From assembly GCA_016795505.1 (NCBI GenBank), contig JAEUHH010000029.1, positions 1 through 64,000 on the forward strand: a DNA stretch of 64,000 nt, written 5' to 3'. This document shows positions 419-55,116 of this stretch, in pieces. The translations under genes were made by a program, and so were the position numbers. The notes beneath the pieces are model-generated. The model was not told the DNA's origin and did no database searches. It saw only the letters and a program-made list of their open reading frames with translations. Position 1 is the first letter of the stretch. Every line of letters begins with the position of its first letter. The DNA comes from Verrucomicrobiales bacterium. GTDB lineage: Bacteria > Verrucomicrobiota > Verrucomicrobiia > Verrucomicrobiales > DEV007.

Positions 419-455
419 ACCCGGTTGACTCGGCGGACAGACCCGGTTGAGTCGG
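419..455 (+). repeat. Diverged 22-bp-phased repeat pair (locus 1)
   Basis: ACCCGGTTGACTCGG at 419-433 and ACCCGGTTGAGTCGG at 441-455 differ at one base and start exactly 22 bp apart. Against the unit seen elsewhere in the window (ACCCTGTTTGATCGG) they keep ACCC, GTT and TCGG (about 11 of 15 positions). The pair lies between the nuclease gene and the GNAT gene, and the second unit covers the possible TTG start at 447. Membership in the family is inferred from the shared 22-bp phase plus partial identity. Confidence 0.5.
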
Positions 456-458
456 AAT

Positions 459-899
459 ATGCTGAGTATTTCCCCCATCACCGCGGCTGATCTCGATCCC
501 TGGCTTGCTTTACGCGCTTTGCTTTGGCCGAATGATGGTCCGGATGCGCTTGCCGAAGACGCGGCACGCACCCTGGCGGACGCCCATCAGGCTGGCTTTC
601 TGGCTCGAGATGGCGAGGGTCGGCCGATCGGTTTTATCGAGGTCGCAATCTATCGGGATGTTCATTCTCAGAACCCGCGCGGGCACATCGAAGCGTGGTT
701 CGTCGTCCCCGATCGGCGCGGAGAGGGACTCGGAGCGGCCCTGCTGGCCCACGCCGAACAATGGTGCCTGCACCGGGCTATCACTCTGCTCACCTCTGAC
801 ACCCACGATGGCTATCCTCTCAGTCCGGTCGCGCACGAGGGTCGAGGATTTCGGAAACTCGCTGAATTGCAGATTTTCGTGAAGGAGCTTACAGGTTGA
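459..899 (+). CDS. GNAT family N-acetyltransferase, AAC(6')-like
   Basis: About 146 residues, the size of a single GNAT domain. The acetyl-CoA-binding motif is visible as VVPDRRGEGLGAALL (R/Q-x-x-G-x-G/A type), preceded by the beta strand HIEAWF. The N-terminal WLALRALLWP and the C-terminal SDTHDGYPLS...HEGRGFRKLAE resemble aminoglycoside 6'-N-acetyltransferases and their uncharacterised relatives. The substrate cannot be told from sequence. ATG 459 is preferred because it begins directly at the first beta strand; an in-frame TTG at 447 would add four residues and falls inside a repeat unit. Confidence 0.75.
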   Translation: MLSISPITAADLDPWLALRALLWPNDGPDALAEDAARTLADAHQAGFLARDGEGRPIGFIEVAIYRDVHSQNPRGHIEAWFVVPDRRGEGLGAALLAHAEQWCLHRAITLLTSDTHDGYPLSPVAHEGRGFRKLAELQIFVKELTG

Positions 900-938
900 G
901 GCTCCGATTCCGCCTCTTTTCCTATTTTCCTCACGCTC

Positions 939-2660
939 ATGTCCGACCGCGATCCTTCCACCCTCCGCTCTGCTCGCTGGTTCGCGCCGGACGACCAGCG
1001 TTCCTTCGGCCATCGTTCGCGATTGAAGCAGATGGGCTTCGACACGGAGGACTTCAAAGCGAAGCCGGTGATCGGCATCCTGAACACTTGGTCGGACCTG
1101 AACAATTGCCACACCCATTTTCGCGACCGCGCCCAGGAGGTGAAGCGGGGTGTGTGGCAGGCAGGGGGATTCCCTTTGGAGATCCCCATCATGACGCTCT
1201 CGGAGAGCTTCATGAAGCCCACCTCCATGTATTACCGCAATCTGGTGGCTCTGGAGGTGGAGGAAACCATGCGCTGCTATCCCCTCGACGCGGTGGTGCT
1301 GATGGGTGGCTGCGACAAGACAGTGCCCTCGCTGATCATGGGAGCGACTTCGGCGAATCTGCCATCCATCTTTCTACCCGCCGGCCCGATGCTGCGGGGC
1401 TGTTGGCGCGGCGAGGTGCTGGGATCGGGCACGGACATGTGGAAGTACTGGGCCGAGCGTCAGGCCGGCAATCTCTGCGGGGAGGCTTGGAATGAGTTGG
1501 AGGACGGCATCGCCCGATCTCCCGGCACCTGCATGACGATGGGCACGGCATCCACCATGGCTGCGGTCACGGAAGCGCTGGGCCTGTGCCTGCCTGGAGC
1601 CTCATCCATCCCGGCGGTGCACTCCACCCACGCCCGGATGGCGGCAGCGGTCGGCCGGCGCGTCGTCGATCTGGCCTGGGAACAGGTCAAAATCCGCGAA
1701 TTGCTGACGGAGGATGCCTTTCACAATGCCGTCGTCACCCAAATGGCCCTCGGCGGCTCGACCAATGCCATCGTGCATCTCATCGCCATGGCCGGCCGGG
1801 CGGGCGTCCGCCTCACACTCGATCGGTTTGACGAGATTTCCCAGCAAGTGCCGGTCATCGCAAACCTGCGGCCCTGTGGCGACCATCTGATGGACGATTT
1901 CTACGATGCGGGAGGCTTGCTCGCTCTGTTGAACCGCATTCCCGGCCATCTCCGGCTTGGCGCGCGCACCGTCTCGGGGAAAACCCTGGGAGAAACGATC
2001 GACGGAGCCGAAGTCTACAACGACGATGTCATCCGCACTCCCGACCGATCCGTCTCAAAGGCGGGCGGCACCTTCGTGCTGCGGGGCAACCTGGCGCCGA
2101 ACGGTGCGGTGATCAAACCGACCGCGGCCGAGCCACGACTGCTCCAGCACCGGGGACCAGCGGCGGTCTTTGCCAACTACGCCGACCTGAAGGCTCGAAT
2201 TGACGATCCCTCGCTGAGCCTGACTGCAGATCATGTAATCGTGCTGCAAAACGCCGGCCCGATCGGCGCGGGCATGCCGGAATGGGGCATGCTACCCATC
2301 CCGAAATACCTCCTCGCCCAGGGCGTGCGCGACATGGTGCGCCTCTCCGATGCCCGCATGAGCGGCACCAGCTACGGAGCCTGCGTACTGCACATCTCGC
2401 CCGAGTCGGCGGTGGGCGGCCCTCTGGCTTTGGTAAAAAGCGGTGATCTGATCACGCTCGACGTAGCCGGGCGCCGGCTGCATCTGGAGGTCGACGAGGC
2501 CGAATTGGAGGCCCGTCGCGCCGACTGGCGGGCGCCGGAGCCGAAATTTGCCCGCGGTTATGGCAAGCTCTATCTGGAGGAGATCACCCAGGCCGACGAA
2601 GGCTGCGACTTCCGCTTTCTTCACCACGGACCGGACGCGCCGGAGCCGGACATTTTCTGA
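939..2660 (+). CDS. IlvD/Edd family dehydratase, probably a sugar-acid (arabonate/xylonate type) dehydratase
   Basis: A 573-residue full-length IlvD/Edd protein. The three Fe-S cluster cysteines are visible as C57 (NNCH), C125 (GGCDKT) and C198 (GTCMTMGTAS); K127 in the second motif is the usual metal-associated lysine, and RMSGTSYG near residue 470 is the conserved C-terminal catalytic loop. The block FRDRAQEVKRGVWQAGG...PTSMYYRN is characteristic of the aldonic-acid dehydratase branch rather than of valine/isoleucine IlvD, so dehydration of a sugar acid to a 2-keto-3-deoxy acid is the likely reaction. The substrate is inferred and branched-chain synthesis is not excluded. The next gene starts immediately after the stop. 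Confidence 0.82.
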   Translation: MSDRDPSTLRSARWFAPDDQRSFGHRSRLKQMGFDTEDFKAKPVIGILNTWSDLNNCHTHFRDRAQEVKRGVWQAGGFPLEIPIMTLSESFMKPTSMYYRNLVALEVEETMRCYPLDAVVLMGGCDKTVPSLIMGATSANLPSIFLPAGPMLRGCWRGEVLGSGTDMWKYWAERQAGNLCGEAWNELEDGIARSPGTCMTMGTASTMAAVTEALGLCLPGASSIPAVHSTHARMAAAVGRRVVDLAWEQVKIRELLTEDAFHNAVVTQMALGGSTNAIVHLIAMAGRAGVRLTLDRFDEISQQVPVIANLRPCGDHLMDDFYDAGGLLALLNRIPGHLRLGARTVSGKTLGETIDGAEVYNDDVIRTPDRSVSKAGGTFVLRGNLAPNGAVIKPTAAEPRLLQHRGPAAVFANYADLKARIDDPSLSLTADHVIVLQNAGPIGAGMPEWGMLPIPKYLLAQGVRDMVRLSDARMSGTSYGACVLHISPESAVGGPLALVKSGDLITLDVAGRRLHLEVDEAELEARRADWRAPEPKFARGYGKLYLEEITQADEGCDFRFLHHGPDAPEPDIF

Positions 2661-3683: not shown

Positions 3684-3707
3684 TTGATCGGCTTTTCTTC
3701 TTCTCCC

Positions 3708-5153
3708 ATGCGGATTGCCCTCGTCCATTCCCACCTGCGACCCGGCGGCGTGACGCGCGTGATGGAACAGACCGTCCAAGCTTTGCGAAGGAGCAGACCG
3801 GGCGAACTGTCGATCGTCGTCCTGACCGGCGAGGCCGCTCCTACCGACTCACCTCTGATTGATTCCCATGCTGTCGTCGAGGGTTTGGGCTATCAGGATC
3901 ACTGCACCCCTGGGGCACCGGCGGAATTGGCAGCCTCCCTCACAGTCACGGCCGCCCGTTGTCTGGGTGGCAACCCGGATGTCTGGCACTTCCACAATCC
4001 GCTCCTTGGGAAGAATGTCGCCCTCCCCGGCGCCATCCGGCTCCTCGCCGGACAAGGAGAGAATCTGTTGATTCATCTTCATGATTTTGCTGAAGACGGA
4101 AGGCCGGATAACTATCGGCAACTCTTCAGTGCTCCTGGATTCCTGCAGACAGGCCTCTACCCTTCGGCCGGACAGGTTCACTATGCGGTCCTCACCCCCA
4201 GAGACGCAGCCATCCTGCGTCGTGGCGGCTTGCCGCCGGATCGACTTTGGATCCTCCCCAATCCAGTAGCCCCCCTTCCGTCCGATCCTGCCGGTAGCAA
4301 GCCGGAGTTTGCACTGGGACGGCGTTTCTTCCTTTATCCAACCCGCGGCATCCGCCGAAAGAACCTCGGTGAACTGCTGCTACTCGCCCAACTCACCCGG
4401 CAAACCCATGCCTGGGCCACCACCCTGAGCCCAGCCAATTCACGCTGGCAAGCCGGCCACGCGCAATGGAGAGCCGTGGCCCGCCGGCTTTCGCTACCGG
4501 TCGAGTTGGGGCTATCCGATCATCCCGCTCATTCGTTTGGCTCGCTGGTGTCCGCCGCAGACGGCATCGTGACGACCAGTGTGGCCGAAGGTTTCGGGCT
4601 GGCTTTTCTCGAACCGTGGCTGTCGGGAAAATCGGTCCACGGACGCCGCCTGCCGGAAATCACCGACTCATTCGAGAGCTTATCCTTCGATCACTTGTAT
4701 GACCGGCTCACGATCCCGGTGAAATGGATCGATTCGAACCGTCTCCACGAAAAACTCGACCACGCCCTGCGAGCCTCGCACTCCGCCTACGGCCGGGACC
4801 TGCCCGACGATGCCATCGAGCGCGCCTACATGGCCGCGGTCCGCTCGGGTCACGTGGACTTTGGCAGACTCGACGAAGAACTCCAGATCTCGGTGCTGGA
4901 GATGATCGACGCAGATGCTTCCAGGGCCGATTCGATCGCCCGGCCCGAATTTTCGCCACTACCGCCTGCACAGATCACCGCCCAAGCCGACCAGATCGCC
5001 AGGCAGTTTGCCCCGGGGACCTATGCCAGCCGCCTGCTTGCGGTCTATGACCGTCTCATCGCCACGCCCCCGACCGAAGTGTCCCAACTTGATGGCGAGG
5101 CCGTTCTCGACGCGTTTCTGGACGCCGGACGCTGCCATCTGCTCTGCCTGTGA
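3708..5153 (+). CDS. GT4-like glycosyltransferase
   Basis: About 481 residues with GT-B/GT4 traits: N-terminal RIALVHSHLRPGGVTRVM, the second-domain strand FFLYPTRGIRRKNLGELL, and the E-x7-E nucleotide-sugar motif in SVAEGFGLAFLEPWLSGK. ATG 3708 is preferred over an in-frame TTG at 3684 because it begins at the first beta strand. The gene sits between the GpgS-like synthase and the HAD phosphatase, so it may add a second sugar to glucosyl(phospho)glycerate, as in mannosylglucosylglycerate synthesis. That role is inference from context; acceptor and donor are not visible. Confidence 0.65.
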   Translation: MRIALVHSHLRPGGVTRVMEQTVQALRRSRPGELSIVVLTGEAAPTDSPLIDSHAVVEGLGYQDHCTPGAPAELAASLTVTAARCLGGNPDVWHFHNPLLGKNVALPGAIRLLAGQGENLLIHLHDFAEDGRPDNYRQLFSAPGFLQTGLYPSAGQVHYAVLTPRDAAILRRGGLPPDRLWILPNPVAPLPSDPAGSKPEFALGRRFFLYPTRGIRRKNLGELLLLAQLTRQTHAWATTLSPANSRWQAGHAQWRAVARRLSLPVELGLSDHPAHSFGSLVSAADGIVTTSVAEGFGLAFLEPWLSGKSVHGRRLPEITDSFESLSFDHLYDRLTIPVKWIDSNRLHEKLDHALRASHSAYGRDLPDDAIERAYMAAVRSGHVDFGRLDEELQISVLEMIDADASRADSIARPEFSPLPPAQITAQADQIARQFAPGTYASRLLAVYDRLIATPPTEVSQLDGEAVLDAFLDAGRCHLLCL

Positions 5154-6049: not shown

Positions 6050-6057
6050 CAGCCCGA

Positions 6058-10617: not shown

Positions 10618-10656
10618 ATTCGCCATTCCCCTCTAAGTTTTTCGAGTCGAAAGAAG

Positions 10657-17637: not shown

Positions 17638-19350
17638 ATGCGTTGGACCTTTGGCTCCCGCCGCCCCACATCCGCCGTCGCCGCGCCGAAAGGTGCCGGA
17701 GCCGGCTGCCTGATCCCCTTCGGCCTGATTTTCCTCGGCATGGGGCTGCTGTTCACCTTCTTCCTGGTCCGCCAGATCCTCGCCGAAGCCGAGACCTATC
17801 GCTGGCCGGCCACGCCCTGCGAGATCGTCGCCTGCGAGGTCTTCGTCGATGGCCAGCGCGACTCCCCTTTCCGGCTGGATGTCACCTACCGGTACGAGGT
17901 CGCAGGCCAAACCCACGAATCGAACCGGCTCGGACTCCAGGAAAAATGGTCCGACTCCTACGAAAAGCTGGCCCTGAAACGCCGCGCCTTCCTCTCCGAT
18001 CCGGACGCGGTGTGCTATGTGAATCCCGCATCAGCCACCGAGGCGGTGCTCCAGCGCGAGCATCCCGCCGCCGCCCTGTTTGTGCTCATCCCCCTGATCT
18101 TCGTGGTCGTCGGTGCCACGATCGTCTGGGCAGGCGTCGCCTCCTTCCGCAAACAGAAACAGCGTGCCCTGTCCGCCCAGCCCTCCGCCACCCCGACTGC
18201 GGCCGGGCCTCCCAGCCGCAGATCGTCCGCGATTTTCGGCGTCGTCTTCACCGTCATCGGCCTCGGAGCCAGCCTGCCCTTCCTCCTCGGACCGGTCCGG
18301 AAGATGGCCGAGTCCCGACACTGGGTCGAGACACCCTGCACCATCGTGTGGAGCCGGGTCATCAGCCACGACAGCGACGACGGCACCACCTACAGTGTGG
18401 ACATCTTTTACGAGTATCAGTTCGCCGGTCAGACCCACCGGTCGAACCGCTACCGCTTCCTGACTGGCTCCTCCAGCGGCTACGCGGGAAAGAAAGCCGT
18501 CGTGGACCGACATCCCGCTGGCTCCACCCAGGTCTGCCACGTCAATCCCGACCTACCCGAGCAGGCTGTCCTCGTTTCCGGCTTCACCCCGGGCGCCCTG
18601 TTCGCCGGCATCCCGATCGCCTTCCTCCTCATCGGCCTCGCCGCCCTGTTCAGCTCGGTCAAACCCGCGCCGGCCTCGCCACTCGCCGCGGGCCTTCTTT
18701 CCGCCAGTGGCAGCGGCGGCAGCACCAGCGGTGAGCCTCTGGTGCTCTGTCCCGCGGGCAGCCGAAAGTTGAAAGCCGGCGGTTGCCTCCTCGGAGCCGT
18801 GTTTTGGAACGGCATCGTTTCCCTGTTCGTCGCCGACACCATCGAAGGCTGGCAAAATGGAGGCGGCGACTGGTTCCAGACCCTTTTCATGATTCCCTTC
18901 GTCCTCGTCGGTCTGGGCCTCGTCTTCGGCTTCTTCTACCAACTCCTCGCCCTCGCCAATCCCCGGCCCACCGTCGTGCTGCCCGCCGGTGCTCCGCGCG
19001 CGGGCGAAACGGTCGAAGTGCTGTGGGAACTCACCGGCCGCACCTCGCGGGTCACCCGGCTCAGCATCAGCCTGTGGGGCATCGAGACGGCCACCTACCG
19101 GCAGGGCACCAGCACCGCCACCAGCCGCGAGGTCTTCTACGATGCGACCCTGGCCGAGGCGGTCGACGAAATGGACATCCGCCAGGGCAAAGCCACACTG
19201 ACCCTGCCGGCCGACCTGATGCACTCGCTCAAGCTACCCAACAACCAGATCCACTACCAGATCCGGATCCACGGCGAGATCCCCCTGTGGCCCGACATCG
19301 CCGACCATTTCGATGTGACCCTGTTGCCTCTCCGATCAAACCCTGTTTGA
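17638..19350 (+). CDS. Membrane protein with two DUF3592 domains and a C-terminal beta-sandwich region
   Basis: 570 residues. Two similar modules are visible: WPATPCEIVACEVFVDG...VTYRYEVAGQTHESNR (about residues 55-105) and WVETPCTIVWSRVISHD...IFYEYQFAGQTHRSNR (about 226-270). Each is flanked by transmembrane helices, the DUF3592 pattern. After further helices around residues 375-440 a soluble C-terminal domain begins (PAGAPRAGETVEVLWELTG...ITLPADLM-type strands), similar in style to the next gene. The stop codon lies inside a perfect hairpin of the 22-bp repeat, so the last residues (RSNPV) are repeat-encoded. Function unknown. Confidence 0.72.
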   Translation: MRWTFGSRRPTSAVAAPKGAGAGCLIPFGLIFLGMGLLFTFFLVRQILAEAETYRWPATPCEIVACEVFVDGQRDSPFRLDVTYRYEVAGQTHESNRLGLQEKWSDSYEKLALKRRAFLSDPDAVCYVNPASATEAVLQREHPAAALFVLIPLIFVVVGATIVWAGVASFRKQKQRALSAQPSATPTAAGPPSRRSSAIFGVVFTVIGLGASLPFLLGPVRKMAESRHWVETPCTIVWSRVISHDSDDGTTYSVDIFYEYQFAGQTHRSNRYRFLTGSSSGYAGKKAVVDRHPAGSTQVCHVNPDLPEQAVLVSGFTPGALFAGIPIAFLLIGLAALFSSVKPAPASPLAAGLLSASGSGGSTSGEPLVLCPAGSRKLKAGGCLLGAVFWNGIVSLFVADTIEGWQNGGGDWFQTLFMIPFVLVGLGLVFGFFYQLLALANPRPTVVLPAGAPRAGETVEVLWELTGRTSRVTRLSISLWGIETATYRQGTSTATSREVFYDATLAEAVDEMDIRQGKATLTLPADLMHSLKLPNNQIHYQIRIHGEIPLWPDIADHFDVTLLPLRSNPV

Positions 19351-19355
19351 TCGGA
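19318..19355 (+). repeat. 22-bp-phased repeat pair with perfect hairpin (locus 2)
   Basis: Two units start at 19318 (ACCCTGTTGCCTCTCC) and 19340 (ACCCTGTTTGATCGGA), exactly 22 bp apart. The second lies in a perfect inverted repeat: TCCGATCAAAC at 19331-19341, loop CCT, and GTTTGATCGGA at 19345-19355. The stop codon of the DUF3592 gene (19348-19350) is in the right arm. As RNA it would form an 11-bp stem with a 3-base loop, but no T-run follows, so it is not a standard terminator. Confidence 0.8.
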
Positions 19356-19373
19356 ATCCGCCCCGCCTACCCC

Positions 19374-30032: not shown

Positions 30033-33000
30033 TCAGCGATTAAACAGGAAAGCGGCATTGTTGATCAAGGCCCAAGTGAGATCCTGCGCCGCGGTGAGAC
30101 GGCGATTGGCGGCCTGCTGGATGGACTGGCTCACATCGGCCCGCAGGCCTGTCAGCGCTCCGTCGTCCGCCACCGGGGTCTCGGCACGTGCCAGGGCGGC
30201 CTTGAGTTCCTCCATGCGCGGATCGGCCGGCAGGGGCCGTTTTTCCTGGGCCAGGGTCTGGGTGCGCTTCAGATATTCGGCGTCCTGATCCCGCACGTAG
30301 GTCGTCAGGGCGCCCTTCTGGGCATCGGTCCTCTGGGCGGGCGGCGTTGAAGCAATCGCGGCCATATCGCGGGGCAGGCCAAGATCGAGCGGCTGGCTGG
30401 AATCCGTCGTCCAGAGGCGGAACTTGCCGAGCGGATACTCGCCGTTCGAGTAGCGGCACAGCACCTTCACGGTGATCGTGCCGCCCTTGTCATCGATCTG
30501 GATCGGCTTTTCGAGCTGGAAGCGCGCCCAGTGCGGACGACGCTCCTGACCGGCGACGGCCCAACCCTTGTCGTTGCGATCGACATTTCCGTTGATGGCA
30601 TTCTTCACATCGAAGTCCTGCTGATTGTGATCCGCCATCGCCCCGACGAACTTCACCGGCATCGCCTTCGGCTGGCCGGCGGCGGCGACCTCGGCCTGGA
30701 ACTCGGTGACCACGAAATTGCCGTTGGTATTCAGACCGGGACCGAACCCGGCGAGCCGTTCATCCGGCAGCGCCTCCAGCATGAAGCCGGTGATCGTCGT
30801 CGGCGCGCCCTTGGGAATGGCAAGAGTCACCGTGTAATCGGCGTTGCCGACATTTCCCGAAGCCAGCACGGTGCCATCAGGTTGAAGCGCCGCGGTGATG
30901 ACACTTCCGGCGACCTTGGCTTCGGCCGGCACGACAGGCTGCCACTGGGTCCAGAGTCGGCCGAGGGTCAGGGCGCTTTCCCAGGCGGTGACCTTGGCCG
31001 GCACCTGACCGAGGTACTCCTTCACCTGCTGATCGGCTGCGGCAATGCGCTGCTTCTGGGCGGCCTCGGCTTCGGCCTTCTTCTTGTTAAACTCGGGCGT
31101 GTAAGCCGCGATCTCACCCTGGGCCTTGGCGATGCTCTGGAGCCGTTGGACTTCCAAAGCGGCCTTTTTCGGCACCCAATTGCCCTCTGCCTGGGCCAGC
31201 TTGGCGACCAGGGATTGGTGGTCGCTCTCGATCCCGGACCAGTTTTCCATCACAGCGGCGATCTCCGCGGCGGTCGGTTTGCGGTTCAGGATGCGTAGGT
31301 AGAGCTTCTCGACCAGTTTCTTGTCATCCGGCTCCGTGGCCACAATCTGGGCGATGGCATTCTTCGGATCACCGATCGCCTCAGCCACGGCGGGACCGCT
31401 CAGCAACGACATCACCGAGCCGAGTTGCAGATCATTCTGCCGATCACACTCGCAGGCGCTCTCGCGGGGCGGTCGGCCGAGATTGGCGAGGAAGCCACCC
31501 TTCGCGTCCGTCTGGGAGTCAGCCAACTGCGCGGCACGCACGCCGGGAGCGGCTCCGGGAATGTTCGGCACGGATCCCGTCACGGCATAAACGCTGTCGA
31601 AGAGCACCTCGGCAGGCAGGCGGCGGGCCTTGGCCCGGGCGTAGTTGATGGTGTCGTCGGCATTCCACTGGTTCGCTTCGATGGAAAGCTGGTAGGTGCG
31701 TGATTTGCAGATTTCGGCCATCAGCTTCCTCACGTCAAATCCACCGCCGACAAACTGCTTGGTCAGGTAGTCCATCAGCTCAGGATTCGAGGGCGGATTG
31801 CCGGCCCGGATGTCGTCGATCGGCTCGATCAGGCCGGTGCCGGTGAGGTAGCCCCAGATCCGATTCGCGTAGCTCATGCCGAAATAGCGATTGTCAGGGC
31901 TGGTCATCCACGCGGCCAACTGCTCGCGGCGGGACGGAGCCTCCGGGTTCTTGAAGGCGGCCTTTTCCACCTTGGCCGGATAGGGGAATGCCGGCTTGGC
32001 CACCTGGTTGGTCACGATGTTGGTCACATCGCCCTCGGCCTTGTCTGCGATTACCTCATAGAGCGGTTTGGCCCCCTCGACCGCGGTGCCGCCAATGTTC
32101 TGGTTGGGCGCATTCTTGCCGTCGCGTGCCAGCCCCACCTGAGCGAAATACGAGGCTGTCTCGTAATAATTGGCCACATTCCACTTCTCGAAGGGATGGT
32201 CATGGCACTTATTGCAGTTGAACCGCGTCGCCAGGAACAGATGGGTCGTGTTCTCAACGAGATCCTCGGGATTTCTCAGGATCTTGTAATAGGAGGCGGC
32301 GGGGTTTTCCTTGTTCGAACCCGAAGCCGTGACGATCGAATAGACGAACTGGTCGTAGGGCGTGTTCTTCTCCACCTGCTGCTTGATCCAGTCGCGGAAC
32401 AGCTTTGCCCCTTCGCCGCCGAGGAATTTCGAATTCACCTGCAGCATGTCCGCCCACTTGTTCGCCCAATGGTCGACGAATTCCGGCGAACCAATGAGCT
32501 GGTCCACCACCGCGTCGCGCTTTTCCCGGGTCGGGCGCTTGTCGGCCAGGAACGATACAACCCTGTCTGATGAGGGAGGCAACCCTGTCAGATCGAGATA
32601 GACCCGGCGGATAAACTCCTCGTCGCTGCTCAGGCCCGAGGGGATGATCTTCATGCGCTCCCATTTCGACGCGACCAGCTTGTCGATCTCGCCCCACACT
32701 TCCGGCTGCTGCCAGGTGAAGCCCTCGCGGTCGCCCATCACGGTCAGCGTGGTGGCGGCATAGGCCCCTTCGTAGCGGGCCAGAATGGGCGCCTCGCCCC
32801 GGCGGATCGTCGTCATCAGGCCGAAATCGTCATGCTCGGCCACCTCGGAGTTGCCACTCTCGATGAAGGCCTCGTGGGTCACGTCGCGCTGCTTGCCGTC
32901 GGCGTAGTGGGCGACCACGCGAAGCTGCTGACGACCGGCGGTATTCTGGATGACCGGGTTCTTGGGAAACAGCTCGATGCGCGTGACCCGCGGCGTATCG

Positions 33001-36015: not shown

Positions 36016-36742
36016 CTGAGCGTTCACCCAGCCAGCCGTGGGTCCCACAAAGGCTCCGCCGACCACGGGCCGTTGCAGCTACCTGCTTCGCATCCCTGCG
36101 AACGGCTCCGTACAGGGCGGTTCCAATCAGACTCGGACCTTTGGCCCGTAGTACAGCACGATCCAGATCGCTTTGACTCCGCTGCGCTCCGTCCATGCGG
36201 TCAGGCTTCGCCAGGGGGATGCCGCTGGCGCGGCAGGGCATTCCTGTCTGGAACCCCTTGTTCCTCAAGCCAACGGTTGTTCAGCGCGGCGCGCACGATC
36301 GAATGGCCGCGCCGGCGGCGAGCGGCCATGGACGAAGCGCAGCGGAGCCCGAAGGGTGAGGCAGCGCTGGTGTGGACGGATTTTGTGGATCGGGCCTGGC
36401 TGCAGGGGTTGAATGTCCCGACGCCGTGGGGCACCCGGCGAATGCAGGGGAAGGGTTGAGTCTGGCCTTCCAGATTTTCAGGCTGATGCCAGGTTCCAGC
36501 GGCGATGCCCCAGGTTCGGGTGAGGCTGACCTTTGGCCAACTCTCGGCGCGAAGTCGGCGTTTCGGTGTTTCATTTTTTTCGTTTCGACCTGCGATTCCC
36601 GATCGAACCCTGTCGCGTCTCCGATCGAACCCTCTTTGATCGACCGCTCAAGATCGGCGAGTGGACGGAGGGCTTGAAAAAGCGAATTCCCGGCAGTAGG
36701 TGACGCCCGAAGACGGTAACCAGCCGAACTTTTTGGATCCCG
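36016..36742. other. 727-bp region without a recognisable gene
   Basis: Several short frames exist on both strands, but none has family resemblance, a leader or a convincing start. The sequence is mixed: GC-rich tracts such as GGCGGCGAGCGG near 36315, and an AT-richer patch around 36560-36600. It holds one 22-bp repeat pair (36601-36643) about 100 bases before the SGNH gene. It could be a decayed gene or mobile-element remnant. Confidence 0.4.
36601..36643 (+). repeat. 22-bp-phased repeat pair (locus 4)
   Basis: GATCGAACCCTGTCGCGTCT begins at 36601 and GATCGAACCCTCTTTGATCG at 36623; the ACCC units start at 36607 and 36629, 22 bp apart. The second unit has one substitution (ACCCTCT) but keeps the TTTGATCG arm. 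Located in non-coding DNA upstream of the SGNH hydrolase gene. Confidence 0.75.
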
Positions 36743-39176: not shown

Positions 39177-40433
39177 ATGTATCACGACCTTTACGGCTTA
39201 TTCCACCCACCGCCCCCACCTGTGATCCCCCCTCCGATCCCGAGCAGAAGCTGGTTCCCGCTCGCGCTTTTTCTCACCGTTTGGGCAGTAAATCTGGCCG
39301 CACAGGACGTGACGCAGCCAGAGACACCCTCCGGCCCCGCCCTGACAGTCGTCGAGCCGGGTGATTGGGGGCACTTGGAGTACTACCCCCTCGTTTTGGA
39401 GCCACCGGCAGACTACCTGCGCAGTTCTCCCTATTGGAAGTCCCATCTGACCGGCACCGAGTGGTCCTTTCACCAACAGAGCCTGGACGAAGTGCGCCGG
39501 GCCCTGACGGATGCCGGTTTGAGTCCCGAGGCGGTCGACCGCCTCCTGGCGACTGCGGTCGTCGGGCCCGAGACCGGGCGCATCGTCATTCAGCCCCCAG
39601 AGGACGTGATCCTCGCACTCGACCCGGTGGCCCGTGAAAGGCTTTACAACAGAATCGGCCCCCCGGATGGACCAAATCCCTTTTCCGAACCTTTCGGAAT
39701 CGATCCCCGCGGTTTCAGGGTGATGGCGGAAGGTTCCCGGCTGTCACCGGAATCGATCGATCTGATCTCATCCCTCACGTTTTCGCGATCGAAGGTGAAG
39801 CTGTTTTCGGACATCGCCCTCGTCTCCGCGCGGCAAGCCACCGAGGCAGACCGGCTCATCCTCTTCGGCACCCTGCTTCGCCAGCCTTCCACCGTGATGC
39901 GCCTGCGGCTGGGACCGGAAAGCGATCTTCCCACCATCGCCGACTACTGGGCCGCCGGCGGCCGGAACGAGGGTATCCGCCCGCTCCTCCAGTCGATGGC
40001 GGCAAGTTCCGCCGTGGACACCATCGATGTGATCCATCTGCTCCCCCCCACCCCACGCAAACTACTGAACACCTTTCCCAGCCCGATGATGTCGCTGGGG
40101 CAATCGTTTCCCGACTGCTTTTGGACAGCGATGAATTTCTTCAACGATGAGCCGTCGGACCGCTACCTCGACAGCCAGTGGCTGGGAGACTGGCTCGAAG
40201 AGGATTACGAAACCGTCCAGAAGCCCCTCCGACTCGGGGATGTGATCGTGTTCATCAAAACCGACGATAACAAGCCCCTCCACGCCTGCAATTATCTGGC
40301 CGGCGACCTCATCTTCACGAAAAACGGACTTAGCCTGATGAAGCCGTGGACCGTGCAAACGATCGACGATGTATTGGGTACCTACCTCACCGAAGAGCGG
40401 GTGACCGTGTCTTTTTTTCGCAAACGCCTGTGA
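39177..40433 (+). CDS. Exported NlpC/P60-like protein, paralog A (active-site Cys present)
   Basis: 418 residues. A hydrophobic leader (WFPLALFLTVWAVNLAAQ) predicts export; GTG 39222 would give a shorter, cleaner signal peptide than ATG 39177. The C-terminal region FPDCFWTAMNFF (C314), LRLGDVIVFI and LHACNYLAGDLIFTKNG (H369) has the Cys-helix, G-D-(L/V)-I strand and His-strand order of NlpC/P60-like cysteine hydrolases. The N-terminal 300 residues are unassigned. It overlaps the next gene by four bases and is its clear paralog. Confidence 0.55.
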   Translation: MYHDLYGLFHPPPPPVIPPPIPSRSWFPLALFLTVWAVNLAAQDVTQPETPSGPALTVVEPGDWGHLEYYPLVLEPPADYLRSSPYWKSHLTGTEWSFHQQSLDEVRRALTDAGLSPEAVDRLLATAVVGPETGRIVIQPPEDVILALDPVARERLYNRIGPPDGPNPFSEPFGIDPRGFRVMAEGSRLSPESIDLISSLTFSRSKVKLFSDIALVSARQATEADRLILFGTLLRQPSTVMRLRLGPESDLPTIADYWAAGGRNEGIRPLLQSMAASSAVDTIDVIHLLPPTPRKLLNTFPSPMMSLGQSFPDCFWTAMNFFNDEPSDRYLDSQWLGDWLEEDYETVQKPLRLGDVIVFIKTDDNKPLHACNYLAGDLIFTKNGLSLMKPWTVQTIDDVLGTYLTEERVTVSFFRKRL

Positions 40434-41656
40434 CCGAGAAGTCGAGCCTCCTTTTCAGCCTACTCCTGTGCACCATCGGCGCCGTCGGGGGGGCGCCTTC
40501 CGCTCCGGCCCAGGAGCCGGACGGCGTCACCGTCCGTGAGAACGCGGCCGACGCGCCGAGCACCAACCCGCTGCATGCCTGCCGTCCAGGTCCCTGGGGA
40601 GACCTGAATTACTATTACGTGCACCTCGAAGCTCCGGACGAGTTCGTTCGCCAGTCCGTGATCCCTTCCGAGGTCACCGTGTGGCGCTTTGTCGGCATGT
40701 CATCCGACGCCGTGACCGCCTTCCTCCACAGCCTGGCACTGCCCGCGCAAATACTGAGTGCCATCCAAGAACAATCCCAGTGGTATGTCTCCGAGACGGA
40801 GACCCGCATCCTGCCGCATCCCGTCGTGATCGTCAATCTGTCCCCGGAAGCACGCACCAGGATCTACTCCCTGGTCCGCCCGTGGAGGGATAATGAGATA
40901 TTCTTCAAACCCATCGCCATCGAATACGAAAGCGCCGAGCAGTGGTTCGAAGGACTCGATCTGCCGCCGACCATCCCCCCGCTGGTCCATCGACTCACCT
41001 ATCCACAGGGAAAGGGATACGCGTTTTCGGACATTCCCTTCGTCCTGAGCCAACTCGAAAGCGAACACCAGCGACGCACCTTCATCAGAGCACTCACTCG
41101 AACCCGCTCGATCGTCCTCCGCCTCACTGTCGACGGATCGACCGACCTGCGATCCGTGGCGGATTACTGGAGTTCCGGTAGCCGCTTCAAAGACACGCTC
41201 CCCCTGCTGGAGTCGGTGGCGAAAGTCCCGGAGGTGAGCAGCCTCGACGTGACCCACCTGCTGCCCCCTCTCCCGAGAAAACGCCTTTTTACCTTCCCCT
41301 CACCGGGCACCGGATTCTCGGGCCGATTTCCCGATGGATTGTGGACGGCTTTCAATTTCTTCCAGTTTTCACCCATCCAGGATCTGCCGGACGAACCAGA
41401 AGCAGTCGAAACCTATCTCAAATCCCGTTACATCCCAGCCGGAGAAGACCCGCGTTTCGGCGATCTGATTGTACTAAGACACCCCATGACCAAATCCGCG
41501 ATGCATGCCGCAGTCCGCATCGCCGATGACATCGTCTACACCAAGAACGGCGCAAGCATCTTCCGACCGTGGACCATGATGAAGATGGACTCCATGCTGC
41601 TCCAGTGGTCCCATCGCGGCCGACCGGAAGTCGAGTACTGGCGGCTCAAGGAATGA
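40430..41656 (+). CDS. Exported NlpC/P60-like protein, paralog B (Cys position lost)
   Basis: 408 residues from GTG 40430, which overlaps the paralog A stop (GTGA), with a signal peptide (SSLLFSLLLCTIGAVGGAPSA). Shared blocks with paralog A include GPWGDLNYYYVHLEAP, SVADYWSSGSR, DVTHLLPPLPRK, FPSP, RFGDLIVL and MHAAVRIADDIVYTKNG (H359). At the position of C314 in A the sequence is FPDGLWTAFNFF, with Gly303 in place of Cys. If the assignment is right, B is catalytically dead or uses another residue and may regulate A. Confidence 0.55.
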   Translation: MTEKSSLLFSLLLCTIGAVGGAPSAPAQEPDGVTVRENAADAPSTNPLHACRPGPWGDLNYYYVHLEAPDEFVRQSVIPSEVTVWRFVGMSSDAVTAFLHSLALPAQILSAIQEQSQWYVSETETRILPHPVVIVNLSPEARTRIYSLVRPWRDNEIFFKPIAIEYESAEQWFEGLDLPPTIPPLVHRLTYPQGKGYAFSDIPFVLSQLESEHQRRTFIRALTRTRSIVLRLTVDGSTDLRSVADYWSSGSRFKDTLPLLESVAKVPEVSSLDVTHLLPPLPRKRLFTFPSPGTGFSGRFPDGLWTAFNFFQFSPIQDLPDEPEAVETYLKSRYIPAGEDPRFGDLIVLRHPMTKSAMHAAVRIADDIVYTKNGASIFRPWTMMKMDSMLLQWSHRGRPEVEYWRLKE

Positions 41657-41670
41657 CCCGGACCGATTTC

Positions 41671-41715
41671 CGATCGAACCCTGTTGGATCGGAGAGGATA
41701 CCCTGTTTGATCGGA
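41671..41715 (+). repeat. 22-bp-phased repeat pair between convergent genes (locus 5)
   Basis: ACCCTGTTGGATCGGAGA starts at 41678 and ACCCTGTTTGATCGGAAT at 41700, 22 bp apart; the first is preceded by CGATCGA. The pair fills most of the 100-base gap between the convergent NlpC-like and DUF1552 genes, a place where terminators are expected, but there is no T-run. Confidence 0.8.
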
Positions 41716-41756
41716 ATCCACACCCAATGCCGGTCTCTGGCGATCTCCACGCCACC

Positions 41757-43067
41757 TCAAACCAGCAAACCCGACACGGCACCTGTGCTGGCTTCGTTGA
41801 AGCGCTCGATCTCCAATCCCATCCCCTGCCCGAGGGTGAGCAGCAGATTCGCCTGGGGGGTGCCCGGCTTTTCGATGATATGCCGGCCCGGTCGCAAGGC
41901 ACCGCCACCGCGCCCGGCCACCAGCAGCGGCAGGTCGACCGGCACATGGCCGTTGCCATCCTTCATCCCACATCCGTAGAGAACGACCGACTGATCGAGC
42001 AGACTGGTACCGCCTTCATCGATCGCCTTCATGCGACCGAGCAGATAGGCCACCTGCTCGACGAACCACTGGCACACCCGGGTGTATTCCGCGATGGCCT
42101 CTGGCTTGTTCTTGTGGTGCGACATGCCGTGGTGATCGCTGCTCACTCCCGGGAGGAAGGCAAAACTCTGCCGGCTGAATCCATGCGCCATCATCAGCGT
42201 GCCGACCCGGGTCGTGTCCGTCCAGAAAGCCAGCACCATCAGATCCATCATCAGCCGCAGGTGGGCCTCGCGACTGGCAGGCGGCACCGGCGCGGGGCGG
42301 GTCAAAGCGGCATCGCCGGGCGGATGCGGCGGCATCCAGTCCCGCTCGGGAGGATTCAGGATGCCCTCCACCCGACGCTCCACGCCGCGAACGGCCTCGA
42401 AATACTCGTCCAGTTTTTGCCGGTCCGCACCGCTGGCTCGATGCTGGAGGGATCGGGCGTCCTCCCGCACCAGATCGAGCACGCTGCGCCGCCGCGCCGC
42501 CTCCGCCACACCGGGCCGGCGGAACAACCGGTCAAATGCCACCTGCGGGTGGATCTCCGGCGCCAGACGCGTGCTCGCCGTATCCCAGGACACCGTGTTG
42601 GCCAGCGAAATAGGCTCCCCGCTGGCATTCCCCTGCCGGGGCGGCTCGGTGCCGAGCTGAATCGACGGCACCGGCGTGAGGTGACCGATCGCCGCCGCGA
42701 TTTGTTGATCGAGCGAGACCGCATTCCGCAGATTCACGATCGGCGTGCCCGTCAGGAAGGCACCGGTCATCTGGACATGCCCCCGGGCTGGCGTGTCGAG
42801 ACCGGAAACCACGGAAAAATCCCCCATCCGGTCGCGCAAAGGAGCCAGGATCGGCGACAGGTCGAATCCGCCGCCATCGGCCCGGTCAATGACATCCCAG
42901 GCCGCCGGGTAGACGCCATTGGGCTGGAACACGCCGAGGAACCGCACCGGATGCCCGGCTTGTGCCGCCGCCCGGCCCGTCGGGCTCATGATCTCCAGAC
43001 ACGGCAGCCCCATTGAGGCGCCGAGGCCTCGCAGCAGGGTGCGTCGGGAAATGCGGGCGGATTTCAT
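41757..43067 (-). CDS. DUF1552 domain protein with Tat leader
   Basis: 436 residues. The leader ISRRTLLRGLGASMGLPCLEIM is a twin-arginine signal. DUF1552 signatures are FLGVFQPNGVYPAAWDV, LSPILAPLRDRMGDFSVVSGLD, ISLANTVSWDTASTRLAPEIHPQVAFDRLF, MDLMVLAFWTDTTRVGTLMMAHG and LLDQSVVLYGCGMKDGNGHVPVDLPLLVAGR. The family belongs with the DUF1501/sulfatase-like group. It lies 75 bases downstream of the DUF1592/DUF1588 cytochrome gene on the same strand, the usual partner. Function unknown. Confidence 0.88.
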   Translation of the reverse strand: MKSARISRRTLLRGLGASMGLPCLEIMSPTGRAAAQAGHPVRFLGVFQPNGVYPAAWDVIDRADGGGFDLSPILAPLRDRMGDFSVVSGLDTPARGHVQMTGAFLTGTPIVNLRNAVSLDQQIAAAIGHLTPVPSIQLGTEPPRQGNASGEPISLANTVSWDTASTRLAPEIHPQVAFDRLFRRPGVAEAARRRSVLDLVREDARSLQHRASGADRQKLDEYFEAVRGVERRVEGILNPPERDWMPPHPPGDAALTRPAPVPPASREAHLRLMMDLMVLAFWTDTTRVGTLMMAHGFSRQSFAFLPGVSSDHHGMSHHKNKPEAIAEYTRVCQWFVEQVAYLLGRMKAIDEGGTSLLDQSVVLYGCGMKDGNGHVPVDLPLLVAGRGGGALRPGRHIIEKPGTPQANLLLTLGQGMGLEIERFNEASTGAVSGLLV

Positions 43068-43142: not shown

Positions 43143-45788
43143 TCACTCTGGCGATTGGCGACGAAAGGGCACGCTCCTCACCACCAGGCGCACCATCGAC
43201 CGCGCCGAACGATCGCCAGTGGCAAATTCGGCCATCCGGTCGCGGATCTCCGGCTCGTCGAAATAGTGCAGCTCACGTCCCAAGGCATAGGCGAGCAGGC
43301 GGCGATAGAGATTCTCCTCAAAGTCGTCGCGCCGTTCCAACAAGGCGGCTTTCAGTCCCTCCGGACCGGCAAAGACCCGGCCGCCGGGCAGTTGGCCACT
43401 CGCATCCACCGGTTTCCCGGCCTCGAGATCGCGCCAACGACCGACGGCGTCGTAGTTCTCCAACGCGAAGCCGATCGGATCGATCTTCTCATGGCAGCGC
43501 GCGCACTCGGCCCGGGTTCGGTGGAGATCCAGTTCCTCGCGCAGGGTGCGACCGCGCGACTCGCCCGCCTCGCCGGGCAGCTCACCAGCGGTCGGCAACG
43601 GCTCACCGGGATCTTCGCCCAGCAACCGCTCCAGCACCCAGGCTCCACGCCGCACGGGATTTGTCCGCGCCGGCGACGAGGTCGCCACCAGCACACTACC
43701 CATCCCGAGCAAGCCACCGCGCCGACCATCGGTTACGGTGACGGGCCGAAAGTCAGCGCCCTCGATGCCCGCCACGCCGTAATGGCCTGCCAACATCCCA
43801 TTCAAGTAAGCTGTTCCCGAATCGATCAATTCCACCGCCGGCCGTCCCTCGCGAAACACCGCTGCCAGGGTGCGAACTGTCTCCTCGCGCATGGCGGCGG
43901 CCAGTTCGGGAGTAAAGTCGGGAAACTTCGACGCATCCGGAACCACCGTGCGGCCCAGTTCGCGCAAGCCCAGCCAATCGAGGGCGAACGCGTTGAAAAA
44001 CGCCCCGGCTCGCTCGTCGTCCAGCATCCGGTCGGCCTGCGTCGCGAGCGTCTCCGGATGGTTCAACAGACCGGCGTCCGCCAGGTCGGACAATTCTCCA
44101 TCAGGCAGGGTCTGCCACAGGAAGTAAGACAATCGAGAGGCCAGCGCGTGGTCATCCAGCGCCCTTTCTTCCCCCGCCCCGCCGGCTTCGGAGGCCAGCT
44201 CATCCCGGTAGAGAAACCGCGGCGACGTCAGCACCGCCGTGAGCACCGCGGGCCATCCCGCCTCCGGGATGGCGGCGGCGTATCGATCCACATCGGCCTC
44301 CGCCACCGGCCGGCGGAAGGCGCGGGGCAGAAAGTCAGCCAAGATCGAGCGCGGTTCCGCCACCGGGTCCGACAGGGCATCCGCCAGGGTCCACTCGACC
44401 GCCGGACCACCCGGACGGACCGGACCGGACCACTCCAGCCGATCCATGAACAGCCGCCCCTGCCAGCGCGACCAGTCCTCCCATTTCACCTCGGCCACGG
44501 CGACCAGCAGCGCGGCATTGTCGGCCAGCCGCCCGGCATTCTGCTCCTCCCACAGTCGGCGCAGTTCTTCGGCCGATCGACCCGCCACAGCGGCGAGCCG
44601 AACGAGTTGCCGCTCCCATTTCTGGCTTCGTTCCCGCAGATAGACGCGCCGCAGATCGATCTGCCTCGGATCTCCCCCGGGCCCCAGTTCGCGCAGCCAT
44701 TCGTGGCATTCCTGGATGCCCCAGGCCTTGAGATTCAGGTCTTCACGGGCCTCGCGCACCGCGTCCGGCTCGTCGGCGGAAAGCGGGCCCAGCCGGGGAG
44801 CCCGCTCCCGCGCCCGTTCATCGACCAGTCGCACCACATCGGGCGGCAGCGGAGTCCGCGGCACCAGATTGCGGCTCTGGATCGACACGGCATGCCGGCC
44901 GGCGGGGACGAATGCCAGAATCTCCACCATTTCTGTCTGCCCGGCAGCCTGTGCCGCGACGTCCGCCGATCCCGCCGGCTCACCGTCGATCCGCAGGTCG
45001 GCCACGCAGGGGGGACCGTCGCGGGTGGCGGCGGAAAGCCGGAAGCGATACCAGCCATCGGCGGGAAAGTCCCACTCCGCCCTCACCTCGTGGTCGGGAT
45101 GCACCAGCGTCACCCCATCGGACCGGGTGGCGAGCTTCGCCGGGCTGCGCTCCATCGTCTCCGCCTCGATCCAGCCGGCTTCCGGCGGCCGGGTCAGCGC
45201 CAGGACACCCGCGACAGCGCGACGGGCGGATTCTTCATAACGGTCCAACTGGGCCTCTCCGATGGAGAGCGCATCGCGGTCATTGGTGAAACCACTCGCC
45301 CCCTCGCCGTCGTCCGGCAGAGACTCGCCCGCGCGCAGATCGACCCCCAGCAGGTCGCGCAGGGTGTTGCGGTACTCTTCCTTGGTCAGCCGCGGCAGCG
45401 TGACATGGCCGGGCCGCCGGTGACGCGACCAGTCGATCCCATCGAGCCGTTCCCGCAGCCAGCCGCTGAGCCGGGCACGCTCCTCGCCAGTCGGAAAGGG
45501 TCCCTTCGGCGGCATCTCCTCATTTTCGACCTGCTCGATCACCGATTCCCACAGTTCACGGTCGCGGACGAGGTCCAGCTCATCCGTCAGGCCGGTGAGA
45601 TCGGCGCCGCCTTCGGTCTTTTCCCCGCCGTGGCAGCGCACGCAGTGCTCCTCGAGCAGGGAGCGGATGGGCGCCGCAAAATCGGCCTCCTGACACACCC
45701 CGCCGATCTGCACCAACAGGGTCAGTCCGGAGACCCAACAGGGTATGATCGGAAATCGGCGGATTCGCGCTTTCGGTTTTCGCCTCAT
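43143..45788 (-). CDS. DUF1587/DUF1595/DUF1592/DUF1588/DUF1585 Planctomycete-type cytochrome protein
   Basis: 881 residues. After an exported N-terminus there is a heme motif CVRCH (49-53), then PRLTKEEYRNTLRDLLGVDL (DUF1587). A carbohydrate-binding-like domain follows (about 200-330), then RAFRRPVAEADVDRY (DUF1595), SPRFLYRDE...LASRLSYFLWQTLPDGEL (DUF1592), HYGVAGIEGADFRPV...GGLLGMGSVLVATS (DUF1588) and CHEKIDPIGFALENYDAVGRWRD plus the C-terminal LAYALGRELHYFDEPEIRDRM (DUF1585). A periplasmic redox role is expected. The N-terminal codons include a 22-bp repeat pair, so part of the leader (PIIPCWVSGLTLLV) is repeat-encoded. Confidence 0.88.
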   Translation of the reverse strand: MRRKPKARIRRFPIIPCWVSGLTLLVQIGGVCQEADFAAPIRSLLEEHCVRCHGGEKTEGGADLTGLTDELDLVRDRELWESVIEQVENEEMPPKGPFPTGEERARLSGWLRERLDGIDWSRHRRPGHVTLPRLTKEEYRNTLRDLLGVDLRAGESLPDDGEGASGFTNDRDALSIGEAQLDRYEESARRAVAGVLALTRPPEAGWIEAETMERSPAKLATRSDGVTLVHPDHEVRAEWDFPADGWYRFRLSAATRDGPPCVADLRIDGEPAGSADVAAQAAGQTEMVEILAFVPAGRHAVSIQSRNLVPRTPLPPDVVRLVDERARERAPRLGPLSADEPDAVREAREDLNLKAWGIQECHEWLRELGPGGDPRQIDLRRVYLRERSQKWERQLVRLAAVAGRSAEELRRLWEEQNAGRLADNAALLVAVAEVKWEDWSRWQGRLFMDRLEWSGPVRPGGPAVEWTLADALSDPVAEPRSILADFLPRAFRRPVAEADVDRYAAAIPEAGWPAVLTAVLTSPRFLYRDELASEAGGAGEERALDDHALASRLSYFLWQTLPDGELSDLADAGLLNHPETLATQADRMLDDERAGAFFNAFALDWLGLRELGRTVVPDASKFPDFTPELAAAMREETVRTLAAVFREGRPAVELIDSGTAYLNGMLAGHYGVAGIEGADFRPVTVTDGRRGGLLGMGSVLVATSSPARTNPVRRGAWVLERLLGEDPGEPLPTAGELPGEAGESRGRTLREELDLHRTRAECARCHEKIDPIGFALENYDAVGRWRDLEAGKPVDASGQLPGGRVFAGPEGLKAALLERRDDFEENLYRRLLAYALGRELHYFDEPEIRDRMAEFATGDRSARSMVRLVVRSVPFRRQSPE
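45716..45757 (-). repeat. 22-bp-phased repeat pair in the leader codons of the DUF1592 gene (locus 6)
   Basis: Read on the minus strand, ACCCTGTTGGGTCTCCGG and ACCCTGTTGGTGCAGATC start 22 bp apart (plus-strand ACAGGGT at 45738-45744 and 45716-45722). The flank nearest the gene start reads CCGATCATACCCTG. The pair encodes residues of the predicted signal peptide of the gene starting at 45788. Confidence 0.65.
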
Positions 45789-47620: not shown

Positions 47621-47689
47621 CTGAGGCCGGAGTGGCGGTCGGAAACGCCGCCCACCGGCAATCTCAACGCTGGCGGAAGCGGCAGACGA

Positions 47690-47959: not shown

Positions 47960-48065
47960 AGTGGGCGGGAATGTACCGTTTCTGGGGGAAATTCAAGGAG
48001 AAATCCCACTCTTGAGGCTCTTTTCTGGGATTGCATTGCTGGGGCGAAACCGTCAAGATGCCCTC

Positions 48066-48875: not shown

Positions 48876-48879
48876 TCGC

Positions 48880-49755: not shown

Positions 49756-49876
49756 GGGGGCGGATAGTAGGTGGCGAAACGACCGGCGCCAAGCCCGAAT
49801 GCCCGGATCGCCCTCCCGCAGGCCGCCGCGTGATCGCGTGTCGCTTCCGGCTCGTCGTAGCGGCCCGATCGCGAGT

Positions 49877-52756: not shown

Positions 52757-52803
52757 AGTCAGCAGGCCGCCTTTCCCCTTTTTCTGCGGGTCACGAGCCT
52801 CTT

Positions 52804-55116
52804 TCAACGGATCACCACCACTGCCGCCTGCTCATTCTCGCCGGCAGCGCTGATGATGGACGGGACAGCCTGGGCGGCCAGGACGGCCTGCCAGGCGACC
52901 GCAGCGCCCAGACTCTCGCCAAGGATGCGGGCGGGTGAAACGGCCCGGCCGGAAAACGCTGCCCACGCGGCGGCCTCGGCAGCATCGAGTCCGGGGTCGC
53001 CGTCTTTCCGATCAAACAGGGTAGCATATCCGATCAAACAGGGTTCCATCGAAATCCCCGCCGCCAGTCCGGCGACGACATCGGGCCGGGGTCGCGCGGC
53101 GGTGTAAAGCTCGGGGCCGAGGATGTGAGTCAGGCTTGGGCCATCGATTTTGGCCGTTTTGGCAGCCTCGAGATAGAGGGCACCGGCGCCTTCAGCAAAG
53201 GTCACACCGGGGGCGAAGAGCTGGACGGCCTCGGCACAGAGCCAGTCGTACTCCTCGGCACCCACCACGACGACCCCGTCGCAGTCGCCATCTTCGATCC
53301 AGCGGACCGCGATTTTGACTGCCTCGACGAACTGGGAAGAATCGCCGACGAGGGTGTAGCACGGCCCCGTGCTGCCGAGCAGGGCGGCGAGGTGGCTGGC
53401 GGGGGCATTGTAAACGGTCTCGGGAAAGAGAATGGGACTGGCGAGCGCGGGATCGCCGATGACTTCGCCGAAGAAACGGGCGCTGTATTGGACGCAGCCA
53501 TTGACGAGGGCGTAAACGATGCCAAGCCGGGTGCTCCCGCCCCGGACGGCGGCGGCTCGCGGCTCGCCGATGGCCTCCAGGGCGGCGGCGACGGCATAGC
53601 GGGCCACTGAGCTGGAGCGCCGGAGCCGGGGATCGCGGAGGAAGGGAAATTTCTCAACCGGCGGCGGCACGCGGCGAACCGGCACCGCCCAGGGCCGGCC
53701 CTCGCGGACAATGGGCTCGGGGGGCGTCAGGCTGGCCGGATCGGCGAGGGCGGCATCGAGCGCCGCGGCAGTCCAGCCGGCGGGAGAGACGGCGCCCCGG
53801 CCGCGGATGACGATGTGGTACGGCAAATCCGTTGCGGCGGCGGCCACGGCGTGGCTTTCGTCATAAGCCGCGAGGATGAGGGAGGCATTCGATCCACCGA
53901 AGCCGAAGGAATTCGTCAACACGCGCCGGACGCAGGCATCGCGCGGCTGGCGGACGAGGTCGAAGGTGCAGACGGGATCGGGTGTCTCGACGGTGGTGGT
54001 GGGCGGCAGGAACTGCTCGCGCAGGGCCATGAGGGAGATGACGGTCTCGACCGCGCCGGCCCCGCCGAGGAGATGGCCGATGGCGGACTTGGTGCTGCTG
54101 ACGCGGATGGCGCCCACCTCCGCGCCGGCCCAGCGCTGGATGGCGCGACCCTCGGCGATGTCGTTGAGCGGGGTGCCGGTGCCGTGGGAGTTGAGATAGT
54201 CGATATCGGCGGGCCGCAGCCCGGCCTGGCGACAGGCCATCTGCATGGCACGCAGGGCGGCATCGCCCTCGGGATGCGGCTGGGTGAGGTGGTGCAGGTC
54301 GGTGGCGACGCCATAGCCGACGATCTCGGCGAGGATTTCCGCTCCCCGGCGGCGGGCGGCATCAAGGGACTCGATGGCGAGCATGGCCGCGCCCTCGCCG
54401 AGCGCCAGTCCGTCGCGGTGGGCATCGAAAGGTCGCGGCGGGACGTGGGTGGTGAGGGCCTGGAGCGAGTCGAAACCGGCGAAGACGAGTCGGGCGAGGG
54501 CATCGTAGCCCCCGGCAAAGACCCGCTCTGCCTCGCCACGACGGACGAGCCGGCAGGCGTGACCGATGGCATTCGCCCCGCTGGCGCAGGCATTGCTGAT
54601 AATGGTGATCGGTCCGGCGAAGCCCAGGGCATCGGCAAGATGGACGGCCTGCCGATGGGTCTGGTAGTTGCGGATGCGGGTCATCTGGCCGCGGCGGCAG
54701 TCGGGGGTGGCGATGGCCTGCTCGTAGTAAGCCTCGCCCAGGGTCATGGCTCCGGCCGAGGTGCCGAGGCAGAGGGGAAGCGGCTCGGCGCGCACGGCAT
54801 CATCCCATCCGGCTTGGCGCCAGGCTTCATCTCCGGCATGCAGGAGCAGACGGGAGGCGCGGTCGAGCCGAAGGGTTTCGCGGGAGCCGAGACGATGGGC
54901 GGGCAGATCGGGCGGCAGAATGACCTCCCCGGCGAGGCCGACCCGCTGGCAGTTGGTGTCAAACAGGGTGATGGGGCGGAAGGCGAGCCGTCCCTCGCGA
55001 AAGCCGTCTGCGTTTTCCCGCCACCCGAGCCCCATCGATGTGATGATCCCGACACCGGTGATGACAACCCGGCGATCCCGGGGGAAAGGTGTGGCTATGC
55101 AGGAAAGACGCGACAT
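52804..55116 (-). CDS. Two-domain beta-ketoacyl synthase fusion (KS plus degenerate KS)
   Basis: 770 residues from ATG 55116. The N-terminal domain (about 15-420) is a FabF-like KS with C177 ([12 protein letters not shown]), H311 ([11 protein letters not shown]) and K343/H348 (STKSAIGH). The second domain restarts at [12 protein letters not shown] (about 430) and follows the KS fold ([11 protein letters not shown]). At the nucleophile site it reads [10 protein letters not shown] with no Cys, and no HGTGT or K-x4-H is seen, so it resembles a chain-length-factor partner fused to its KS. The C-terminal part includes a 22-bp repeat pair. Product and acyl carrier partner are unknown. Confidence 0.75.
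53010..53045 (-). repeat. 22-bp-phased repeat pair inside the ketosynthase gene (locus 7)
   Basis: Plus-strand CCGATCAAACAGGGT occurs at 53008-53022 and CCGATCAAACAGGGTT at 53030-53045; read on the minus strand both units are ACCCTGTTTGATCGG, 22 bp apart and nearly identical. They encode [14 protein letters not shown] in the degenerate KS domain. This is the best-conserved pair in the window. Confidence 0.82.

Follow-up and report, generated by a model that had tools for sequence, protein, structure and literature searches.

Evenly spaced arrays of a 22-bp-phased palindrome in a Verrucomicrobiales genome: candidate sites of a chromosome-organising protein

The window analyzed here, a 64-kb stretch of DNA (C7:1-64000) from a Verrucomicrobiales bacterium with a draft genome of 6.55 Mb in 120 contigs, carries seven short arrays of a palindromic unit that are scattered between and within protein-coding genes. 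Each consists of two units except where indicated. The leftmost array (408..458; unit centres at 422 and 444) is diverged, with a pair score of 21. The second (19307..19357; centres 19321 and 19343; score 61.8) overlaps the stop codon of the open reading frame at 17638-19350; the third (32549..32599; centres 32563 and 32585; score 21.9) lies within a 5.2-kb gene, 30033-35192(-), which was named PSCyt2/PSD1 by Pfam; and the fourth (36596..36646; centres 36610 and 36632; score 46.7) is intergenic. The fifth array (41645..41717; scores 67.9 and 27.2) combines two strong units, centred at 41681 and 41703, with a weak third one at 41659, and occupies the convergent junction between the genes 40430-41656(+) and 41757-43067(-). 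The sixth (45705..45755; centres 45719 and 45741; score 34.3) adjoins the predicted start of the gene 43143-45713(-), and the seventh (53005..53055; centres 53019 and 53041; score 61.9) falls within the 3' portion of the gene for a ketoacyl synthase, 52804-55035(-). The 1719-aa product of the PSCyt2/PSD1 gene joins PSCyt1, WD40-repeat, PSCyt2 and PSD1 domains.

All seven pairs had been listed, with a constant 22-bp step, in a first-pass annotation of the window, and all were recovered; the pair at 419/441, described there as diverged, is a weak but genuine member of the family. The seven pairs score 21-68 under a pair model that was trained on the same sequences that it scores; under the same model, the score in 20 shuffled windows never exceeds -0.3. 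A count of ACCCNGT pairs at every step from 7 to 60 bp, of the kind that the annotation had proposed, gave six pairs at 22 bp, against 0.017 per shuffled window, and none at any other step in the window. Nor are the units a local peculiarity, a prospect that the same annotation had raised: in the whole genome, the 15-mer ACCCTGTTTGATCGG has 1447 matches with up to 3 mismatches, compared with 89 for the reversed control, and the paired pattern has 806-856 matches, compared with none for the reversed control. Extrapolation from the 92 arrays detected in 855 kb yields approximately 700 arrays per genome.

Alignment of the matches in 464 kb of the genome defines the unit as a 21-bp palindrome, CGAT-N3-AC-N3-GT-N3-ATCG, with an asymmetric centre that is mostly CCT (AGG in the reverse orientation) and sometimes CCG or CGG. 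Given that the unit is palindromic, the "+" and "-" units are one and the same thing with the asymmetric centre reversed; accordingly, the ACCC(T)-type units previously assigned to both strands do occur in both orientations but represent a single palindrome rather than two kinds of unit. In the same 464 kb, the distance between neighbouring centres is 22 bp in 54 cases, 44 bp in 9, and 40, 62 and 84 bp in one case each. The relative orientations of neighbours at 22 bp are -+ in 18 cases, ++ in 16, -- in 12 and +- in 8, so that the phase holds whichever way the CCT/AGG centre points. Most of the arrays contain two or three units, but one has four and another has eight; the earlier description of the units as occurring in twos therefore captures the pairs and misses these longer arrays. 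The 8-unit array keeps the 22-bp step, lies upstream of a gene for a RecQ-like helicase (G000:C75:93569-93723) and is apparently a tandem expansion.

The ends of the arrays are flanked by TTT/AAA, symmetrically on both sides, and the canonical element of approximately 50 bp can be written as TTTCCGAT..AC...GT..ATCNNNGAT..AC...GT..ATCGGAAA. Because of the terminal TTT...AAA, this element is a palindrome as a whole, and with this layout dyads alternate every 11 bp, AC-N3-GT being followed by ATC-N3-GAT. One double pair, its inner centres separated by 53 bp, also occurs in the genome analyzed here. In a second genus, represented by the genome G072, many elements are double pairs with the inner centres 32 or 42 bp apart (e.g. 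in G072:C17 and G072:C97). The spacings of 22, 32, 42 and 53 bp are all close to multiples of ~10.6 bp, the helical repeat.

Given their proximity to stop codons, their enrichment at convergent junctions and their AAA/TTT flanks, the palindromes could in principle be bidirectional transcription terminators or other RNA hairpins. However, the arms carry no compensatory changes: for the three variable arm pairs, the Watson-Crick fraction is 0.36, 0.29 and 0.31, compared with 0.47, 0.39 and 0.38 expected from composition. The N3 arm triplets thus do not covary, and a hairpin of RNA or single-stranded DNA, whether in a REP element or in a terminator, is rejected on this ground. Moreover, the TTT/AAA flanks are symmetric at both ends, some of the arrays lie in coding DNA, an Rfam search of the window gave no match, and termination leaves the spacing rule described below unaccounted for, all of which makes terminators highly improbable. 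The lack of covariation would best fit two protein half-sites on double-stranded DNA. A CRISPR array was rejected as well, given that the units abut (21 bp plus 1) without spacers and occur in groups of 2-4 at hundreds of dispersed places.

The genomic context of the arrays was analyzed in 855 kb, with genes predicted by our own simple gene caller, according to which ~88% of the DNA is coding. Of the 92 arrays, 73 are not fully inside a gene and 19 are wholly in-gene. Arrays occupy 22 of the 51 convergent junctions (43%), 35 of the 271 tandem junctions and 13 of the 97 divergent ones; the contrast between convergent and all other junctions (48/368, 13%) is highly significant (Fisher p=1.4e-6). 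The in-gene arrays are translated in differing frames; that they are limited to very long genes was considered and found not significant. In two well-known, conserved enzymes, cysteine desulfurase and gamma-glutamyl phosphate reductase (ProA), the arrays add no residues compared to solved homologues, and this gap-free alignment indicates that these arrays arose through substitution rather than insertion.

The sample for the analysis of spacing comprised the same 855 kb, in six contigs, with 92 arrays and 86 gaps. The most unusual property of the arrays, one that the first-pass annotation missed, is their even spacing along the chromosome. The mean gap is 8.9 kb with a coefficient of variation (CV) of 0.48, compared with 0.95 for uniform random placement (lowest of 2000 simulations, 0.69), 0.92 for random placement restricted to intergenic DNA, and 0.92 for a null matched for the convergent, divergent, tandem and in-gene classes (lowest of 3000, 0.69); this test and that of the convergent preference were chosen after the data had suggested them, and the second genus provides an only partly independent replication. 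Gaps shorter than 3.5 kb number 2 of 86, against 26.6 in the class-matched null (lowest 15), and the six contigs differ little in density, with one array per 7.9-10.7 kb. On the basis of the class-matched nulls, we reject the notion that a preference for intergenic or convergent-gene positions alone produces the even spacing.

The same geometry recurs in related genomes. In three sister species of the same genus (G001-G003), the array geometry is retained with drifted half-sites, GATTCAACAGGGTTAAGTC...GACTTAACCCTGTTGAATC. Orthologous loci in these species were compared, as the first-pass annotation had recommended. All three species retain the window arrays at 45716 and 53016 in the orthologous place, and an array at C9:95.1 kb is kept at the same place in two of the three, the flanks of the retained arrays being ~65-75% identical; in contrast, an array at C9:81.7 kb is absent from all three. 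The latter array takes up an intergenic region for which two of the sister species have a shorter counterpart, and it looks like a gain, so that insertion may be the source of some arrays. In G072, the element is TTTACGAACCAACAGGGTTGGTTCG-a-CGAACCAACCCTGTTGGTTCGTAAA, with a different half-site and the same geometry. The mean gap there is 5.9 kb, with a CV of 0.61 compared with 0.89 in the class-matched null, and 12 gaps are shorter than 3.5 kb against 22.4 expected, just under the null minimum of 13, so the spacing in this genus is only moderately regular; arrays occupy 13 of the 32 convergent junctions compared with 35 of the 157 others (p=0.04). Array positions are not enriched at shared places between the two genera (4/8 vs 7/18 orthologues).

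Of the genera of the order that were searched, three (g1, g2 and g19) carry the paired pattern; g20 shows it weakly, g15 has a single occurrence, and the others gave no match. In 76-100 kb from each of three other genera in the family, there is no 22-bp signal, and among 289 genomes drawn from the phylum, matches appeared only in the genome analyzed here, apart from one isolated single match. The named stretches among the matches listed all belong to Verrucomicrobia/Verrucomicrobiales assemblies. Judged by these searches, no more than a few genera, all from one Verrucomicrobiales family, possess the arrays. An IMG/VR contig (L139) contains one good paired array at 4678-4718 (GAGCGAACAGGGTTGACTCACGGACTCAACCCTGTCGAGTC), in the dialect of the sister species, within a predicted 225-aa gene that adjoins a tape-measure gene; this contig is perhaps a (pro)phage of the clade that shares the site. 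In a motif-negative sister genus (G080), exact 7-mer repeats at 41-42 bp are in strong excess and represent some other repeat family.

A REP-like mobile element was among the possibilities raised in the first-pass annotation, and the arrays might accordingly be REP/BIME-like palindromes that were spread by a Y1 (RAYT) transposase and perhaps co-opted later. The palindromes are indeed high-copy, paired and mostly intergenic, Y1_Tnp genes are present, and the array at C9:81.7 kb behaves as noted above. However, there is no REP hairpin or arm covariation, alignments of cysteine desulfurase and ProA reveal no residues inserted at the arrays, and a minimum spacing of ~3.5 kb is not expected from a mobile element. 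Furthermore, the counts of Y1 genes do not track the arrays across 10 genomes: G072, with 723 paired matches, has a single Y1 gene, and the motif-negative G006, with none, has 36. The three Y1 genes that we examined are located 2.5-4.5 kb from the nearest array. Together, the gap-free enzyme alignments, the orthologous positions and the transposase counts make this origin very unlikely. Many of the 36 Y1_Tnp matches in G006 fall in ~345-aa frames that resemble one expanded family.

DNA uptake sequences, by which a competence system recognizes DNA of its own species, deserve consideration because those of Haemophilus are likewise abundant and significantly evenly spaced (PMC1939737). Even spacing over the genome is also what we find here, and the half-site dialects vary between species and genera. 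Known uptake sequences, however, are short, non-palindromic single words that need no partner, whereas here the strong units are organized in 22-bp-phased arrays with defined ends; the density of approximately one array per 9 kb and the preference for convergent junctions also speak against uptake sequences, which are therefore a quite unlikely explanation.

The palindromic, phased sites, some of them directly upstream of start codons, could also be the operators of a transcription regulator, whether ordinary or global, another possibility raised previously. As a regulon, this appears unlikely because hundreds of evenly spaced sites, 19 of the 92 sampled being wholly in-gene and others being located at the favoured convergent 3' junctions, are a poor fit to promoter control.

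The two remaining suggestions of the first-pass annotation fare better. That of a dimeric protein bound to one face of the helix is supported by the dyad half-sites, the lack of arm covariation, the spacings close to whole turns and the independence of the phase from unit orientation, and that of a nucleoid or segregation site is supported by, among other grounds, the even chromosomal spacing. We consider it probable, at roughly 60%, that the arrays are high-copy sites of a dedicated dimeric (or dimer-of-dimers) candidate protein with an architectural role; binding of this protein, its cooperativity and the effect of its binding are what we infer. Besides the copy number, the dyad symmetry, the helical phase and the kilobase minimum spacing, this reading draws on the positions retained between species, their turnover between genera and the drift of the half-site under an unchanged geometry. 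One dimer would dock on each palindrome, with GAT-N3-AC as the half-site, and dimers on neighbouring palindromes would cooperate at 22 bp because the units share one helix face. Going by known protein families, the alternating 11-bp dyads might suit row-forming, cooperative binders of the ribbon-helix-helix or double-HTH type. Each occupied array would then mark one point every ~6-9 kb over the whole chromosome and might act as a loop anchor or a barrier to supercoil diffusion rather than control an individual promoter, with placement favoured at convergent genes, between which positive supercoils accumulate. Both loop anchoring and supercoil barriers would fit the spacing together with the convergent preference. 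More tentatively, and with somewhat less than even odds in our estimate, a protein specific to this clade may use the evenly spaced arrays to divide the chromosome into segments of 6-9 kb (loops or supercoil domains), in the manner of a ruler-like insulator; individual sites would be replaced and the half-site would change from genus to genus, with the spacing maintained throughout.

A ParB-type binder was considered and rejected: each of six motif-positive genomes encodes one ParB-HTH protein, without an extra copy, and four motif-negative genomes encode one or two. Given that ParB is single-copy in the motif-positive genomes and in three of the four motif-negative ones, these counts give no hint of a binder. 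No candidate emerged among the neighbours of the 8-unit array (RecQ, ATP-grasp and AAA proteins) or among the small genes downstream of arrays.

Little is known of what physically marks the borders between supercoil domains in bacteria, and in Escherichia coli the barriers appear to be placed at random (reviewed in PMC6907758). The arrays are a candidate for a domain-border mark that is displayed by the genome itself, and the sequence alone is enough to read their spacing rule. Should the binding protein be found, the domain size would become measurable and changeable, and the system would provide a clade-specific case of a chromosomal protein that co-evolves with hundreds of sites. In the open-access literature that we searched, we found neither a description of such paired arrays nor a bacterial example of a ruler-like insulator system.

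Several known systems share part of these features. The cyanobacterial HIP1 is a clade-specific, very abundant palindrome, as the arrays are, but is a single short word without a phased array or kilobase spacing. The sites parS, matS and KOPS and those bound by Noc occur in tens of copies or are regionally or strand biased. They resemble the arrays in being short, mostly palindromic and bound by chromosome organisers, which for the arrays is a candidate role; the arrays differ in their uniform density, their phased pairs and the lack of an extra ParB-HTH protein tracking the motif. The uptake sequences of Haemophilus and Neisseria have lineage-specific dialects and resemble the arrays also in high copy number, even spacing and presence on both strands, whereas the arrays are 50-bp, two-unit palindromic elements that occur approximately every 9 kb and prefer convergent junctions. 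Closest in function to the proposed role of the arrays is the enterobacterial BIME: for one such element, an impediment to supercoil diffusion has been demonstrated (PMC6907758). Like the arrays, REP/BIME elements are palindromes scattered at hundreds of places, mostly between genes; unlike REP/BIME, the arrays show no hairpin or covariation and no link to RAYT numbers, and combine a 22-bp-phased dimer layout with even spacing and with in-gene copies that involve no insertion.
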